A stretch of 63,102 nucleotides of DNA. It comes from Clostridia bacterium (lineage in GTDB: Bacteria > Bacillota > Clostridia > Christensenellales > Aristaeellaceae). How positions within the stretch are numbered: the stretch's first letter is position 1; each line of letters begins with the position of its first letter. The position numbers were made by a program, and so were the translations under genes. Below the pieces are notes generated by a model. The model was not told where the DNA came from. It worked only from the letters and a program-made list of their open reading frames with translations, and ran no database searches. The stretch spans positions 1 through 63,102 of the forward strand of contig JAFXCE010000062.1 in the NCBI GenBank assembly GCA_017521565.1, read 5' to 3'. Below, in pieces: positions 1-63,102 of the stretch.

Positions 1-64
1 ATAGTAAACTACGGAAATGGAATTGACCGTTTGTATGTCAGAGAAATAAAATAGACTATTCATT

Positions 65-83
65 AAATTCCAATTTGTCGAAC
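65..83 (+). repeat. Cassette right-end inverted-repeat motif (copy at left window edge)
   Basis: The stretch AAATTCCAATTTGTCGAAC matches motifs found directly after genes at 34359, 61117 and 62906. Those lie at the right ends of the tRNA-Ala-associated cassettes. No tRNA fragment follows it here, so this may be the tail of another cassette whose body lies to the left of the window, or a solo copy. Confidence 0.5.
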
Positions 84-33744: not shown

Positions 33745-33820
33745 GGGGCATTAGCACAGTTGGTAGCGCGCTACATTCGCATTGTAGAGGTCACCGGTTC
33801 GAATCCGGTATGCTCCACCA
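33745..33820 (+). tRNA. tRNA-Ala (anticodon CGC)
   Basis: The 76-base gene with encoded CCA has acceptor stem GGGGCAT/ATGCTCC, including the G3:U70 pair that identifies alanine tRNAs, and discriminator A. The anticodon arm CTACA-TTCGCAT-TGTAG gives anticodon CGC, which reads GCG. The T arm CCGG-TTCGAAT-CCGG is normal. The D stem (GCAC/GCGC) has an A-C mismatch at its third pair, unlike the common GCTC/GAGC. Split or damaged copies of this gene occur at 33925, 34422, 61181, 61346 and 62966. Confidence 0.93.
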
Positions 33821-33821
33821 T

Positions 33822-33850
33822 AAAGTCCTTCTCGAAAGAGAAGGACTTTT
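33822..33850 (+). terminator. Terminator after tRNA-Ala
   Basis: AAAGTCCTTCTC/GAGAAGGACTTT stem with a CGAAA-type tetraloop region. Equivalent hairpins follow the 3'-half copies at 61242 and 63027. Confidence 0.85.
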
Positions 33851-33924: not shown

Positions 33925-34084
33925 TTCACTTGGGGCATTAGCACAGTTGGTAGCGGCGCATTCGCATTGCTCAGCATATAGTTTACCAGATGCAGAGGAT
34001 TCGAATGAATCCTCTGCATTTTTCTTTGTATGATTGATGCTTGGTTTTATTTATGCTATCATGTACTCGACAAACTTGAATTTG
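33925..34084 (+). repeat. tRNA-Ala 5'-half repeat with terminator, promoter and inverted-repeat end (copy 1)
   Basis: This 160-base unit begins with the 5' half of the tRNA-Ala (GGGGCATTAGCACAGTTGG onward, to the anticodon loop ATTCGCATTG), then diverges. It carries a terminator (GCAGAGGATTC/GAATCCTCTGC, then ATTTTTC), a promoter TTGATG-N17-TATCAT (34034-34062), and ends in TACTCGACAAACTTGAATTTG (34064-34084), an imperfect inverse of the motif at 34359. A copy about 95% identical is at 61346-61505. It precedes a small AT-rich gene. Confidence 0.85.
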
Positions 34085-34154: not shown

Positions 34155-34343
34155 ATGACCTTATTCGCAATTATACTTATTATAGCTGGCGTTTTTTTAA
34201 CGATTGCACCGAATTTAGTATATGCCATTACTCAAAGCTGGAAAAATAGTAATAACTCTGAGCCTTCCCGCTTTTATAAAACTATTACTAGGGTTCAAGG
34301 CGTCGTTCTTGTTGTTATAGGTGTTGTGCTAATCGTTAGCTAA
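34155..34343 (+). CDS. Small membrane protein (62 residues) in tRNA-Ala cassette
   Basis: The 62-residue protein has two membrane spans (about 4-24 and 47-61) around a polar loop WKNSNNSEPSRFYKTITRVQG. It resembles small DUF6199-like membrane proteins of Firmicutes, but I cannot be sure of the family. GGAGGGC lies 7 bases before the ATG. Base composition is far more AT-rich than the surrounding chromosome, and the gene lies between the cassette end motifs, so it is most likely imported cargo. Function unknown. Confidence 0.65.
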   Translation: MTLFAIILIIAGVFLTIAPNLVYAITQSWKNSNNSEPSRFYKTITRVQGVVLVVIGVVLIVS

Positions 34344-34358
34344 TATCGATTAAACATC

Positions 34359-34377
34359 AAATTCCAATTTGTCAAAC
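34359..34377 (+). repeat. Cassette right-end inverted-repeat motif (copy 1)
   Basis: AAATTCCAATTTGTCAAAC, 15 bases after the small gene's stop codon. It is an imperfect inverse of TACTCGACAAACTTGAATTTG at 34064 and matches copies at 65, 61117 and 62906. Confidence 0.65.
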
Positions 34378-34421
34378 CAGCCGTTGCACAATTACATAGG
34401 GATCTGAGTTAGGCATGCTTC

Positions 34422-34482
34422 GGTAGCGCGCTACATCCGCTTTGTAGATGTCTTAGGTATCGAATTCCTATATGCTCCACCA
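34422..34482 (+). repeat. tRNA-Ala 3'-half pseudo-tRNA (copy 1)
   Basis: Starting at GGTAGCGCGCTAC it follows the tRNA-Ala sequence through the anticodon arm to the terminal CCACCA, with substitutions (anticodon loop ATCCGCTT, T arm damaged). The 5' portion (GATCTGAGTTAGGCATGCTTC) does not pair with the acceptor strand, so it cannot fold as a tRNA. It closes the cassette opened by the 5' half at 33925. Confidence 0.8.
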
Positions 34483-57140: not shown

Positions 57141-58109
57141 GTGGCAAACGAAACCAAGCGCGATATCCTGCTGGACGTACAGCACCTCAAAAAGTACTTC
57201 AACGTAGCCGGCGGTCAGCTGCATGCGGTTGACGACGTCTCCTTTACCCTCGAAAGAGGCAAGACGCTGGGCATCGTTGGTGAGTCCGGCTGCGGCAAGT
57301 CCACCACCGGACGCGCTATTCTTCGCCTGATCGAGCCCACCTCCGGCAGCGTGTATTTTGAAGGCCAGGATATTTCCAAGCTGAGCAAGGAAGAGATGCG
57401 CAAGCTGCGCAAGGAGATCCAGATCATCTTCCAGGATCCCTTCTCCTCCCTGAATCCGCGCCAGACCGTCAGCCAGACGATCGAAGAGCCGCTGAAGATT
57501 CACGGCATGAAGAACAAGGCTGAGCGTCAGGCTCGCGTTCGTGAGCTGATGGAAACCGTCGGTCTGGCCGAGCGCCTTGCCAACGCCTATCCGCACGAGC
57601 TGGACGGCGGCCGCCGTCAGCGCATTGGCATTGCCCGCGCGCTGGCCATGAATCCCAAGTTCATCGTGTGCGACGAGCCGGTTTCCGCTCTGGACGTTTC
57701 CATTCAGGCGCAGATTCTCAACCTGATGAAGGATATTCAGCGCAAGCATGGCATCACCTACATCTTCATCACGCATGACCTCTCCGTTGTCAATCACTTC
57801 TCCGACGACATCGCCGTCATGTATCTGGGCCGCATGGTTGAAAAGGCGCCGGCTGAAGCGCTCTTTGAAGAGCCGCTGCATCCCTACACGAAGGCGCTGC
57901 TCTCCGCCATCCCGGTCCCGAACATCCATTCCAAGAAGGAGCGCATCCTGCTCAAGGGCGAAGTTACCTCCCCGATCAACCCGCCGAAGGCCTGCCGCTT
58001 CGCCAGCCGCTGCGAATATGCGACTGACAAGTGCCGCTGCGAGGAGCCGGAGCTCATCGAGGTCAAGCCGGATCACTTCGTAGCCTGCCACCTGCTCAAG
58101 AAAGAGTAA
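57141..58109 (+). CDS. Peptide-type ABC transporter ATPase (DppF)
   Basis: The 322-residue second ATPase has Walker A GESGCGKST near residue 47 and Walker B IVCDEPVSALD near 175. The signature reads LDGGRRQR rather than LSGGQRQ, a variant seen in some Clostridial OppF-like proteins. A C-terminal oligo_HPY region with Cys-rich CRFASRCEYATDKCRC follows. The start is GTG with GGAGGAG upstream. Confidence 0.94.
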   Translation: MANETKRDILLDVQHLKKYFNVAGGQLHAVDDVSFTLERGKTLGIVGESGCGKSTTGRAILRLIEPTSGSVYFEGQDISKLSKEEMRKLRKEIQIIFQDPFSSLNPRQTVSQTIEEPLKIHGMKNKAERQARVRELMETVGLAERLANAYPHELDGGRRQRIGIARALAMNPKFIVCDEPVSALDVSIQAQILNLMKDIQRKHGITYIFITHDLSVVNHFSDDIAVMYLGRMVEKAPAEALFEEPLHPYTKALLSAIPVPNIHSKKERILLKGEVTSPINPPKACRFASRCEYATDKCRCEEPELIEVKPDHFVACHLLKKE

Positions 58110-60145: not shown

Positions 60146-60359
60146 CGCACCAGCAGCAGACCGTAATCGGAACGTGAAAGCGCGGCCATGCGGGACCCCA
60201 TGGAGAAGCCTCAAAAATGCAGCGATGGCTGTCTGCATTGCTATATTCACAAAGAGCGATGCCCGGCGCGAAAGGCGTGCATCGACTTCTATGTAGCATA
60301 CTCAGCAAATCCCTCTTTTTCCAAAATAAAAAAGCGGACAATCCCGCATCAGCTCCCCC

Positions 60360-60389
60360 TACCCCCTCAATCATGAGGGGGTATTTTCT
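60360..60389 (+). terminator. Terminator-like hairpin
   Basis: TACCCCCTC-AATCAT-GAGGGGGTA stem followed by TTTTCTT. The stretch 60146-60530 otherwise holds only a transposase remnant and marks the change from GC-rich chromosome to AT-rich cassette DNA. Confidence 0.75.
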
Positions 60390-60416: not shown

Positions 60417-60506
60417 ATGAACATCTTGCAGCAAATCTTTTCAGACCACTACGAAGAAATCAAGTATGAAATCGTGGAACTTGCTCGTCAAATCAGCGAG
60501 CAGTAA
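60417..60506 (+). pseudogene. Transposase N-terminal remnant
   Basis: This is a 29-residue frame with MNILQQIFSDHYEEIKY at its start. The first residues resemble the N-terminus of IS91/IS801-type zinc-binding transposases common in Clostridia, and the rest is missing. It sits exactly at the edge of the AT-rich cassette region and may be a scar of past mobile-element activity. The match is from memory and short. Confidence 0.4.
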
Positions 60507-60530
60507 TTATCCAACAAAGGAGGAATGCTT

Positions 60531-61115
60531 ATGAATAAGTCAGAGAGCAAGTATTTTAATACTGCCATCAGATTTAATAAGGCACTTCTTTCCTTACTTG
60601 AAAATAAACCGTTTGAGTATATAACGATTAGTGAGATTTGTGAAAAGGCAGAGGTCAATCGCTCTACATTTTATCTGCACTACGAAAACACCTGTGATTT
60701 GCTTAAAGAAACCACCGCTTATGTGATTGACAATTTCGTCTCATATTTTTCCGTTGATACCGAGAGCATAACTACAAAGTTTGCAGATTGCGATTTGCAG
60801 GATTTGAAGTTTGTCAATGAGAAGTATCTGCATCCGTATCTTTCGTTTGTCAAAGAAAACCAGCGAGTGTTTTTAGCAGTATTATCACAACCAACAGCAT
60901 TTGACTCAAATACTATTTTCCAGAGGCTGTTTGATAATATCTTCAAACCTATATTGGATAGGTTTCACTACCCAAGGGATGGGCAGCACTATGTTATGAT
61001 GTTCTATCTCAACGGCATTACCGCAATCATTACAGAATGGTTAAAGGATCGTTGTCAAAAAAGCATTGAGGACATTTCTGCAATCATTCACGTTTGTATC
61101 TACGGAAAAGAATAA
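60531..61115 (+). CDS. TetR family regulator (cassette-borne)
   Basis: The 194-residue protein has a TetR-type DNA-binding domain (KALLSLLENKPFEYITISEICEKA then EVNRSTFYLHYENTCDLL, about residues 15-55) and a DhaS/TetR_C-like C-terminal domain (YLNGITAIITEWLKDRC). AT-rich codon use is very different from the chromosome. The ATG at 60531 lies 7 bases after GGAGG. The stop codon is followed 2 bases later by a cassette right-end motif, so it is probably cargo of a tRNA-Ala cassette whose left half is missing. Confidence 0.85.
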   Translation: MNKSESKYFNTAIRFNKALLSLLENKPFEYITISEICEKAEVNRSTFYLHYENTCDLLKETTAYVIDNFVSYFSVDTESITTKFADCDLQDLKFVNEKYLHPYLSFVKENQRVFLAVLSQPTAFDSNTIFQRLFDNIFKPILDRFHYPRDGQHYVMMFYLNGITAIITEWLKDRCQKSIEDISAIIHVCIYGKE

Positions 61116-61116
61116 C

Positions 61117-61128
61117 CAATTCCAATTT
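61117..61128 (+). repeat. Cassette right-end inverted-repeat motif (copy 2, partial)
   Basis: CAATTCCAATTT matches the first part of the motif at 34359 and 62906 but lacks its GTC end. It directly follows the TetR stop codon. Confidence 0.5.
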
Positions 61129-61180
61129 ACACATCTCAGTCCCCACAGTCTTATATTCAGGGATGAGATAGAGATGTTTT

Positions 61181-61240
61181 GGTAGCGCGCTACATTCGCA
61201 TTGTAGAGGTCATAGGTATCGAATCCGGTATGCTCCACCA
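61181..61240 (+). repeat. tRNA-Ala 3'-half pseudo-tRNA (copy 2)
   Basis: From GGTAGCGCGCTAC through the intact anticodon arm (CTACATTCGCATTGTAG) to TGCTCCACCA it is nearly identical to the real tRNA-Ala. The T arm is damaged (ATAGGTATCGAATCC), and there is no acceptor 5' strand. The following terminator and about 60 more bases are nearly identical to the copy at 62966. Confidence 0.85.
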
Positions 61241-61241
61241 C

Positions 61242-61269
61242 AAAGACCTTCTCAAATGAGAAGGTCTTT
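61242..61269 (+). terminator. Terminator after pseudo-tRNA copy 2
   Basis: AAAGACCTTCTC-AAAT-GAGAAGGTCTTT stem, equivalent to the one after the real tRNA-Ala with paired base changes in both arms. Confidence 0.8.
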
Positions 61270-61345
61270 GCATTATACATAGAATATGACATTTCAAATT
61301 ATTTGTTCTATGCAAAACACCATTGAGGACAAGAAAAACAACTAT

Positions 61346-61505
61346 TTCACTTGGGGTATTAGCACAGACGGTAGCGGCGCATTCGCATTGCTCAGCATAT
61401 AGTTTACCAGATGCAGAGGATTCAGATGAACCCTCTGCATTTTTCTTTGTATGATTGATGCTTGGTTTTATTTATGCTATCATGTACTCGACAAACTTGA
61501 ATTTG
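61346..61505 (+). repeat. tRNA-Ala 5'-half repeat with terminator, promoter and inverted-repeat end (copy 2)
   Basis: About 95% identical to 33925-34084: 5' half of tRNA-Ala (GGGGTATTAGCACAGACGG), terminator, promoter TTGATG-N17-TATCAT (61455-61483) and the left-end motif TACTCGACAAACTTGAATTTG (61485). It drives the next cassette's genes. Confidence 0.85.
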
Positions 61506-61540
61506 CCGTATAGTGGTTATTTTCGGAAAGAGTAGATATT

Positions 61541-62146
61541 ATGGAATTTAACGAAAAACTACAGGAACTCCGAAAGCAAAAAGAACTTACCCAAGAAGAA
61601 CTTGCAGAGGTTCTTTTTGTGTCCCGAAGTGCAATTTCTAAATGGGAGGCAGGCAGAGGGTACCCCAATATAGATTCTTTGAAAGCAATTGCAAAGTATT
61701 TCGGAGTAACAATTGATGAACTGCTGTCTGGTGATGAATTGCTGACTTTAGTAGAAGAAGATACCAAGCAAAGGGAAAAACATTTTCGCGACTTGGTATT
61801 TGGATTGCTTGATTGCAGTATCGCAATGTTCTTTTTTCTGCCCTTCTTTGGGCAGAAAGCAGATACGATTATTCAGGAAGTGTCTCTTTTATCCCTTACC
61901 GAAATTGCACCATATTTGAGGACAGCATATTTTGTTGTTATAATTGGAATTATAGTATCTGGAATCTTAACCCTTGCTCTACAAAATTGCTATCAAGCAT
62001 TTTGGGTGAAGAATAAAAGTAAAATCTCGTTAGTATTAAATGCGGTTGGAGCACTCCTTTTTATCATTAGTTTGCAACCGTATGCAGCAGCATTTCTGTT
62101 CATCTTTTTGGTAATAAAGGTGTTAATGCTCGTAAAATGGCAATGA
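61541..62146 (+). CDS. XRE-type HTH protein with C-terminal membrane domain (cassette-borne)
   Basis: The 201-residue protein has an N-terminal Cro/C1-type helix-turn-helix (LRKQKELTQEELAEVLFVSRS then AISKWEAGRGYP, residues 9-42), a short linker and a C-terminal region with about four membrane spans (86-105, 124-147, 160-178, 182-198). Such proteins are membrane-tethered regulators or putative sensors in Firmicutes. It is AT-rich and carried by the second cassette, with the promoter in the 5'-half repeat 58 bases upstream. Confidence 0.85.
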   Translation: MEFNEKLQELRKQKELTQEELAEVLFVSRSAISKWEAGRGYPNIDSLKAIAKYFGVTIDELLSGDELLTLVEEDTKQREKHFRDLVFGLLDCSIAMFFFLPFFGQKADTIIQEVSLLSLTEIAPYLRTAYFVVIIGIIVSGILTLALQNCYQAFWVKNKSKISLVLNAVGALLFIISLQPYAAAFLFIFLVIKVLMLVKWQ

Positions 62147-62253
62147 TACGAAGAGTATCATCGTTGTGATGCCTCGTTTCTTGTGGTCGTTCATACCTTC
62201 TCTTAAAATGTGTTTAGGCAAGAGCCAAATACTAAAAAGAAGGTTGAACAAAA

Positions 62254-62907
62254 ATGAAAAAGAAAAACCAGAAAAACCTCGGCGTCGCAATATGTATGCT
62301 TATTGCATTTGTGATGTGGACGGTAGCAATTCGTTTTATTGATGTGCAAGCAATCGGACCGCAAGAGTCATCTGTTGGATTTGCAACGATTAACCAGTTC
62401 GTTCATACCCTCACTGGTGTGCACATGTCCCTGTACACCATCACAGATTGGCTGGGTCTGGTACCGCTTATGTTTGTGATGGGATTCGGCACTCTCGGGC
62501 TTATTCAGTGGATTAAGAGAAAACACCTCTTGAAAGTTGATTATAGTATTCTTGTTCTTGGCGGATTCTATATCCTTGTGATGGCGGCATACGTCCTCTG
62601 TGAGGTATTTGTCATAAATTACAGGCCTGTGTTGATTGATGGGTATTTGGAAGCATCTTATCCATCATCAACGACAATGCTTGTGATGTGTGTCATGCCG
62701 ACTGCAATAATGCAGTTTGATACCCGCATCAAAAACGATGCTCTCAAACGATGTGTCACTTATGCAATTACTGCTTTTATTGTATTTATGGTAATTGTAA
62801 GACTTGTTTCAGGTGTGCATTGGTTTACCGATATTATCGGCGGTGCTTTGCTCAGTACAGGACTTGTTCTCATGTATCGCGCTATTATCAGTTTGGAAGT
62901 TATATAA
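62254..62907 (+). CDS. PAP2-superfamily-like membrane protein (cassette-borne)
   Basis: The 217-residue protein has about six membrane spans. It resembles PAP2-type lipid phosphatases: NYRP (near residue 129) matches the KxxxxxxRP tail, and RLVSGVHWFTDIIGG (near 188) matches the SRxxxxxHxxxD motif. The central PSGH motif is replaced by PSST, so the usual acid-base histidine is missing. The TAA stop runs directly into the right-end cassette motif at 62906. AT-rich codon use. Confidence 0.75.
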   Translation: MKKKNQKNLGVAICMLIAFVMWTVAIRFIDVQAIGPQESSVGFATINQFVHTLTGVHMSLYTITDWLGLVPLMFVMGFGTLGLIQWIKRKHLLKVDYSILVLGGFYILVMAAYVLCEVFVINYRPVLIDGYLEASYPSSTTMLVMCVMPTAIMQFDTRIKNDALKRCVTYAITAFIVFMVIVRLVSGVHWFTDIIGGALLSTGLVLMYRAIISLEVI

Positions 62908-62924
62908 ATTCCAATTTGTCCAAC
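62906..62924 (+). repeat. Cassette right-end inverted-repeat motif (copy 3)
   Basis: AAATTCCAATTTGTCCAAC, overlapping the stop codon of the PAP2-like gene. Imperfect inverse of the left-end motif at 61485. Confidence 0.65.
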
Positions 62925-62965
62925 CATCCACTACATAACACATGGGGATGAGTTACGCATACTTC

Positions 62966-63025
62966 GGTAGCGCGCTACATTCGCATTGTAGAGGTCATAG
63001 GTATCGAATCCGGTATGCTCCACCA
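62966..63025 (+). repeat. tRNA-Ala 3'-half pseudo-tRNA (copy 3)
   Basis: Identical to copy 2 from GGTAGCGCGC to CCACCA. The preceding GGGATGAGTTACGCATACTTC resembles the sequence ahead of copy 1, so these 3' halves share a common non-tRNA left flank. Confidence 0.85.
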
Positions 63026-63026
63026 C

Positions 63027-63054
63027 AAAGACCTTCTCAAATGAGAAGGTCTTT
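63027..63054 (+). terminator. Terminator after pseudo-tRNA copy 3
   Basis: Same AAAGACCTTCTC/GAGAAGGTCTTT stem as copy 2. The match to copy 2 continues to the end of the window, so another cassette probably starts beyond it. Confidence 0.8.
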
Positions 63055-63102
63055 GCATTATACATAGAATATGGCATTTCAAATTATTTATTCTATGCAA
63101 AA

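Follow-up and report, generated by a model that had tools for sequence, protein, structure and literature searches.

In a 63,102-nucleotide stretch of DNA from a Clostridia bacterium (GenBank assembly GCA_017521565.1, contig JAFXCE010000062.1), hereafter the window, small gene-bearing units stand in tandem and carry displaced halves of a tRNA-Ala(CGC) gene. The window is the entire contig C96 of a 160-contig draft genome (84.9% complete). The units are best explained as integrase-less mini-islands inserted in tandem into the tRNA-Ala(CGC) gene by site-specific recombination. Each would bring its own tRNA 3' half and terminator, and because it carries both, a working tRNA would be rebuilt on insertion, the old 3' half would be pushed to the far end of the unit, and repeated insertion would give an array. 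The enzymes that move the units are most likely large serine recombinases (LSRs) of one clade, whose genes lie on separate elements that occupy the same tRNA gene. In most units, the cargo between a left and a right inverted motif (IRL and IRR) would be a cassette in its own right, smaller than the unit and traded between tRNA units and other, unrelated platforms. We give this explanation as a whole (mini-islands in tRNA-Ala, moved by LSRs, with nested IRL/IRR cassettes) a probability of about 0.72, on sequence evidence: unit structure, a hotspot of variable cargo, an empty site for two arrays, the linkage of LSR genes to the tRNA gene, and cargo shared across platforms.

The array at the right end of the window contains two repeat copies (61160-61317 and 62945-63102; 158 nt, 94% identical, 1785 bp from start to start), each consisting of a tRNA-Ala(CGC) 3' half and then a hairpin (Table 1). 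Between them follow, in order, a copy of the tRNA 5' half, a second hairpin, a promoter-like site (TTGATG-17-TATCAT), IRL (GACAAACTTGAATTTG), an HTH gene, a PAP2 gene, and IRR (CAAATTCCAATTTGTC). A TetR unit stands before the HTH/PAP2 unit, and of a third unit only the start is present; the contig stops there, and as the window is the whole contig, the array cannot be followed further right. A preliminary description, made from the letters alone, had proposed such a tandem array of repeat modules around AT-rich cargo in GC-rich DNA, with no integrase and with another unit starting at the window edge. Tools confirmed all of this: GC content is 0.366 for the TetR gene, 0.394 for HTH plus PAP2, and 0.354 for a DUF6199 gene (cargo thus at 0.35-0.39) against 0.567 for the window; the hairpin and spacer at 63026-63102 begin the further unit; and contig C96 has no PF00589 or PF07508 match among the profile matches of the whole window genome. 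The same parts, with DUF6199 as cargo, lie at 33.7 kb behind tRNA-Ala(CGC) at 33745-33820, the single intact tRNA in the window (ARAGORN). At a third site in the window genome (about C153:61770-63600), two units accompany an intact tRNA-Ala(CGC); their cargo is a 233-aa protein with no Pfam match in one and a DUF3784 protein in the other. A scan for the tRNA-core motif (at most 3 mismatches) gave three occurrences in the window and 0 in 100 shuffles.

The units are about 0.7 to 1.8 kb long and hold one or two genes, with their own promoter-like site and hairpin. Cargo domains in the window are TetR (PF14278/PF00440), HTH_3 with a rest that is hydrophobic by eye, PAP2 (PF01569), and DUF6199. 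The promoter-like site follows the 5' half and the second hairpin and may be used to express the cargo; the scanned region holds 12 such sites against 8.3 in shuffles, which by itself is weak evidence. No recombinase and no transfer genes were seen among the unit open reading frames (ORFs) scanned with Pfam, and because no integrase is on board, nor any on C96, the units resemble cis-mobilizable elements (CIMEs) and would be non-autonomous. An intact, rebuilt tRNA at one end and a displaced fragment at the other, as in an integrated island, were found at 33745-33820 plus 34423-34482, on C153, and in relatives.

All counts come from draft genomes, and family-wide counts are lower bounds. The examination of 15 stretches from 13 genomes gave fourteen units that include a tRNA 5' half, spread over nine genomes (one 5'-half match in a coding region at 57612 was dropped), and one further such unit lies in genome G177. 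Among named records, eight stretches carry the 5'-half pattern, all titled as metagenome-assembled genomes (MAGs) of Clostridia or Clostridiales, seven from ruminant gut and one whose title names no host. A plasmid search returned only tRNA-length matches in four Acinetobacter records, and viral_contigs gave 0 matches to the pattern. The gene upstream of the window tRNA, which we take to be DUF554-like, is syntenic in G177, G265, and G238, and DNA further upstream is syntenic in G269. Cargo at this locus is DUF6199 in the window, GNAT in G265, two proteins without a Pfam match in G238, and two others in G269, one of them with a Cass2 match below cutoff; the G177 contig ends ahead of its cargo, and the comparison covers the other four. 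Because the cargo differs between syntenic loci, this locus looks like a repeatedly used insertion site. The preliminary description had named two outcomes that would refute an array, a single duplication without further units and the same gene order across distant species, and neither was seen. That the arrays are an assembly artifact of repeats in a metagenome bin is scarcely credible: the contig ends within a repeat and the draft has 160 contigs, but the same architecture recurs in MAGs from several hosts, in some of them far from contig ends.

Insertion is supported for two arrays by their relation to G151. In G096 and G197, of the window's genus, the DNA that directly follows the last 3' half can be aligned, first base onward, with the DNA directly behind an intact, unoccupied tRNA in G151 (80.3% over 173 nt and 82.6% over 321 nt); this empty-site match was found at 2 of the 11 array ends tested, neither of them at the window's own locus. 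Occupied tRNAs have a similar hairpin behind them, and unoccupied tRNAs have varied terminators. Two sequence types are present in G191: the outermost 3' half matches the rebuilt tRNA in type, and the half between them is of the common type. This pattern fits a swap of 3' halves by crossing over ahead of the T-arm, though the events may have had another order. Growth of the array through recombination between homologous tRNA copies, or through their segmental duplication, would account for the left modules of other units in the window genome, which are 82-94% identical to the query module in long matches. We consider it very unlikely, as the cargo differs from unit to unit, near-identical cargo occurs in contexts with only a short motif in common, and native tRNA-downstream DNA lies beyond two arrays.

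The candidate enzyme comes from relatives. A 3.2-kb element in the tRNA-Ala gene of G228 carries a serine recombinase gene that ends 48 nt before the displaced 3' half, and its product (L202:4170-5807) has the Resolvase, Recombinase, and zinc ribbon domains of an LSR (PF00239, PF07508, PF13408). Two further genes of this element (L202:2736-4030) match QatD and, in part, QatC, and are possibly the remains of a defense system. LSR matches at E ≤ 1e-40 occur in at least 42 of 300 family genomes; 30 of the 54 listed places were fetched, the rest including several at 57-75% identity. A displaced tRNA-Ala 3' half lies past the stop codon in 15 of the 18 fetched loci at ≥54% identity, at a distance of 44-207 nt or, in one copy with an internal stop, 571 nt, and beside none of 12 homologs at ≤46% identity. 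Two of the three unflanked loci at ≥54% have the contig end 2 nt past the gene. In a tree of 26 of the 30 fetched proteins (four truncated or disrupted ones left out), for which the program warns of some long branches, a 100/100 branch separates 15 rows (13 flanked) from 11 unflanked ones. A tandem in G197 consists of an LSR, a 3' half, a plain unit, and a 3' half, with the tRNA itself off the contig, and may reflect mobilization by a neighboring element. As of 2014, in the excerpts of the literature consulted, serine recombinases were a class without known tRNA-gene targeting; this clade appears to target one, with a testable attB.

Several observations weigh against the mini-island explanation. 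Nine of the 11 array ends have no empty-site match, and no tRNA 5' part was seen before the TetR unit, which leaves the 60-kb array without a tRNA at its left end. The LSR of G242 (55% identity) has no adjoining tRNA half and is a real exception, and clade LSR and plain units stand together only in G197, with the tRNA off the contig. One comparison speaks for the LSRs, with limits: across 21 units and 14 LSR elements, the arms that precede the 3' half resemble one another, with a mean alignment score of 5.14 (four unit arms being cut one base later than the others), against 2.86 for the tRNA's own 5' side and a mean of 3.38 (maximum, 3.77) for 200 shuffles. The likeness is modest, the shuffles ignore relatedness, and some LSR arms (L213, L216, and L217) differ much. 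The preliminary description had advised searching for a recombinase gene beside the same repeats; clade LSRs stand beside tRNA halves in relatives, and the window genome has none at E ≤ 1e-40. Its two PF07508 proteins align only partially to the clade (22-25%) and are not beside tRNA-Ala. Because the window genome lacks a clade member, we infer mobilization in trans; either its units would rely on an enzyme supplied by another element or cell, or they are stranded. The internal tRNA 5' half, conserved in many units and apparently lost (by eye) in G084, could be an old attL and is unexplained by the proposed mechanism. Lastly, IRL is recognizable by eye directly after the promoter-like site in 11 of the 14 units and unrecognizable in 3.

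The units might instead be cis-mobilizable islands of tyrosine-integrase elements, such as phages or integrative and conjugative elements (ICEs), that use the same tRNA gene. Excerpts of PMC4383910 give tRNA genes as the usual target of tyrosine integrases, and, as a further point against LSRs as the movers, two PF00589 genes in G194 lie no more than 3 kb away from a displaced tRNA-Ala 3' half. The serine clade, however, adjoins the displaced half in 15 of 18 loci (a count of serine recombinases only), serine elements share a similar right arm, and in G197 one stands in tandem with a plain unit; we hold the tyrosine origin to be unlikely. At the G194 locus (L192:1-4600), the two tyrosine integrase genes come just after the tRNA-Ala(CGC) 3' half and a distant serine recombinase (29%) just before it, and because both classes adjoin this half, more than one recombinase class may use tRNA-Ala.

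Where the preliminary description saw one level of mobility, there seem to be two, one nested in the other. IRL and IRR also occur without a tRNA, at about 64-79 in the window and on contigs C1, C6, and C137 of its genome, which has 13 matches at ≤1 mismatch against 0 in the control; IRR-like sites were found in at least 30 of 300 family genomes. At L068:1-1400 (G000:C137), the same inverted motifs surround an alpha/beta hydrolase gene, in modules rich in GTTTCA/TGAAAC in place of tRNA halves. Cargo crosses platforms. GNAT cargo at the G265 tRNA site matches another platform in G243 at 99.2% over 499 bp, with the left break exactly before GAATTTG, the center of the left motif, and cargo in G221 and G135 (91.4% over 490 bp) breaks at the same center. 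Over 780 bp, the window's PAP2 block (62143-62920) shares 86.4% identity with a locus in G001, of another genus; homology stops at the last base of IRR and the flanking DNA is unrelated on both sides, the left border not being at IRL. Cargo shared by L081 and L087 likewise ends at IRR, with no IRL at the left. In G181, two cassettes are directly joined by IRR within one tRNA unit. Exchange of cassettes may be ongoing. A right cassette border at L053 was rejected as a recombination border because an IS110-family transposase gene begins close by; that gene (L053:144-1337; PF01548, PF02371) marks where the foreign DNA starts beside a GNAT cassette, at the cassette's right motif, as though the motif had served as its target.

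The second level may, at close to even odds, consist of mobile insertion cassettes or miniature inverted-repeat transposable elements (MITEs), that is, transposon ends around passenger genes with an unseen transposase and no integron-like recombination. G209 has 222 matches to the right end CAAATTCCAATTTGTC at ≤1 mismatch against 0 for the reversed control. In 20 stretches of this genome (L268-L287), 149 right ends (≤3 mismatches) were found; 96 of them have a left end no more than 4 kb away, and in 54 of the 96 pairs the two ends are 90-300 bp apart. Many of the elements are non-coding, their flanks are unrelated, no target duplication was seen by eye, and the ends are conserved on both sides of the center, a pattern that we read as a burst of a MITE-like family. 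As in MITEs and mobile insertion cassettes, terminal inverted repeats surround passenger DNA in many copies. Because in G209 the motifs form the ends of numerous short non-coding elements, with the outer half of the motif conserved as well, an ordinary transposon end fits better than an integron site, which also counts against the exchange of cassettes as we propose it. On the other side, in two coding-cassette pairs the shared cargo comes without the outer half of the left motif, and on several platforms we read a promoter-like -10 box at a fixed distance before the left motif. No autonomous element of this second level was recognized by eye in about 300 kb of G209 or in the stretches of G174 that were read, for which no transposase profile was run. 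Tyrosine integrases were rejected as neighbors of the inverted motifs, the stretches around 30 PF00589 loci having none at ≤2 mismatches, and no covariation of left and right motifs was seen by eye. We give the transposon-like and integron-like readings of this level similar weight.

The preliminary description had called the near-identical repeats with differing cargo integron-like. As a description this stands, with further units, varied cargo at syntenic loci, and cargos in unrelated contexts; an identification as an integron is not supported. A true integron, with IntI, attI, and attC cassettes, would explain single-gene cassettes and cargo such as GNAT, NUDIX, glyoxalase, and an AraC regulator matching Cass2; cargo across the units also includes hexapeptide acetyltransferase, RibD-like, and APH-like genes, and such kinds are known from integron cassettes too. 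The outer part of the motif can, in our reading, be taken as RYYYAAC, and IRR/IRL resemble R''/R' by eye. Nevertheless, this origin is highly improbable: the units are anchored at tRNA-Ala(CGC), whose displaced 3' halves are not attC sites, and inverted motifs bracket the cargo where an integron cassette would have a single attC, at the 3' end. An integron integrase as the driver was rejected, TIGR02249 giving only distant-relative matches, with 0 of 12 draft genomes over the cutoff; all 14 control genomes likewise match below it.

We tentatively propose a two-level system of gene capture in gut Clostridia, in which LSRs that have adopted a tRNA-Ala gene as their site would build arrays of mini-islands ready for expression, and, inside these, a separate recombination at palindromic sites would swap single genes from tRNA arrays to other platforms and back, an integron-like function without an integron integrase. 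It would offer gut Clostridia without a known integron a route to stack and express small foreign genes, and the LSR is a possible target-specific integration enzyme for bacteria that are hard to engineer. Neither level was found described in the open-licence PMC papers searched, where the motif sequences had one match, in a porcine virus paper.

Left of the array, the possible transposase scar of the preliminary description is a 29-aa reading frame at 60417, and a 62-aa frame (60188-60373), which has no Pfam match, resembles by eye the start of a DUF5131 gene (PF07505); in G273, and by DNA similarity in G238, such a gene directly borders the array on its right side. The window genome also has another tRNA-derived repeat, seen by eye: similar non-coding repeats lie behind two tRNA-Ala(GGC) genes (L016:1806-2200, G000:C53; L015:1688-1930, G000:C131), and each ends with tRNA 3' sequence and a like terminator.

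Table 1. Parts of the tRNA-Ala(CGC) units and associated motifs in the window.
Feature	Position	Strand	Basis
Solitary right inverted motif at the contig left end, no tRNA part seen after it	64..79	+	Motif match
tRNA-Ala, anticodon CGC, intact (rebuilt)	33745..33820	+	ARAGORN
Terminator-like hairpin, unit left end	33822..33849	+	Sequence; like the hairpin behind occupied tRNAs in relatives
tRNA-Ala 5'-half copy within unit	33932..33978	+	Sequence comparison
Promoter-like TTGATG-17-TATCAT	34034..34062	+	Sequence; layout matches the scored 61455-61483 site
Left inverted motif IRL GACAAACTTGAATTTG	34069..34084	+	Motif matches
Cargo gene, DUF6199 (PF19701)	34155..34343	+	Pfam
Right inverted motif IRR CAAATTCCAATTTGTC	34358..34373	+	Motif matches
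Right arm and displaced tRNA 3' half	34401..34482	+	Sequence comparison
TetR-family regulator, cargo of the first unit in the 60-63 kb array	60525..61115	+	ORF, Pfam
Degenerate right inverted motif	61115..61131	+	By eye
Right arm (61160-61181) and displaced tRNA 3' half (61182-61240)	61160..61240	+	Repeat comparison, tRNA-core motif
Terminator-like hairpin, unit left end	61241..61270	+	Inverted repeat I1; not in terminator-scan list
tRNA-Ala 5'-half copy	61353..61400	+	Sequence comparison
Second hairpin, ahead of promoter	61411..61440	+	Sequence; not in terminator-scan list
Promoter-like TTGATG-17-TATCAT, TG before second hexamer	61455..61483	+	Promoter scoring
Left inverted motif IRL	61490..61505	+	Motif match
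Cargo gene, HTH_3 regulator with hydrophobic C-terminal part	61541..62146	+	ORF, Pfam
Cargo gene, PAP2 superfamily membrane protein	62254..62907	+	Pfam; 62143-62920 recurs in G001
Right inverted motif IRR	62905..62920	+	Motif match
Right arm and displaced tRNA 3' half	62945..63025	+	Repeat comparison, tRNA-core motif
Start of a further unit (hairpin, spacer), truncated where the contig stops	63026..63102	+	Repeat comparison

Among known systems, integrons share the stacked single-gene cassettes and similar kinds of cargo, but here no IntI scores over the cutoff, each unit has a promoter-like site, and motifs flank the cargo on both sides. The dif modules of Acinetobacter plasmids are, in the excerpts consulted, small gene modules between inverted recombination ends, though the motif here is unlike the 28-bp dif site. 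Mobile insertion cassettes, again by excerpts, are small gene modules between inverted transposon ends; no matching transposase was found here by eye in G209 and G174. Staphylococcal cassette chromosome (SCC) elements differ from the units in using a protein gene as the site, in their paired CcrA/CcrB, and in their larger size. SCC arrays are similar in combining a serine recombinase, one fixed site, and composite arrays, as far as excerpts of PMC3146451 describe them. CIMEs and accreted ICEs or integrative and mobilizable elements (IMEs) resemble the arrays as integrase-less, att-bearing elements in tandem with a recombinase element (PMC5704250, in excerpt), whereas the units here have one standard architecture and not the look of a decayed ICE. 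The closest known system, judged from the excerpted text of PMC3146451, is that of the Dehalococcoides ssrA-specific genomic islands, which likewise stand in tandem at a tDNA-type gene, are bounded by direct repeats of that gene, and in part carry a serine recombinase: DsiB is present in 16 of 31, and the other 15 were proposed to be possibly cis-mobilizable. The same excerpts describe a transfer-messenger RNA (tmRNA) gene as the site, a six-gene integration module, and vcrABC islands of about 12 kb, in contrast to which the units reported here use an elongator tRNA, measure about 0.7-1.8 kb, have their own promoter-like site and hairpin, and contain a second level of cassettes.

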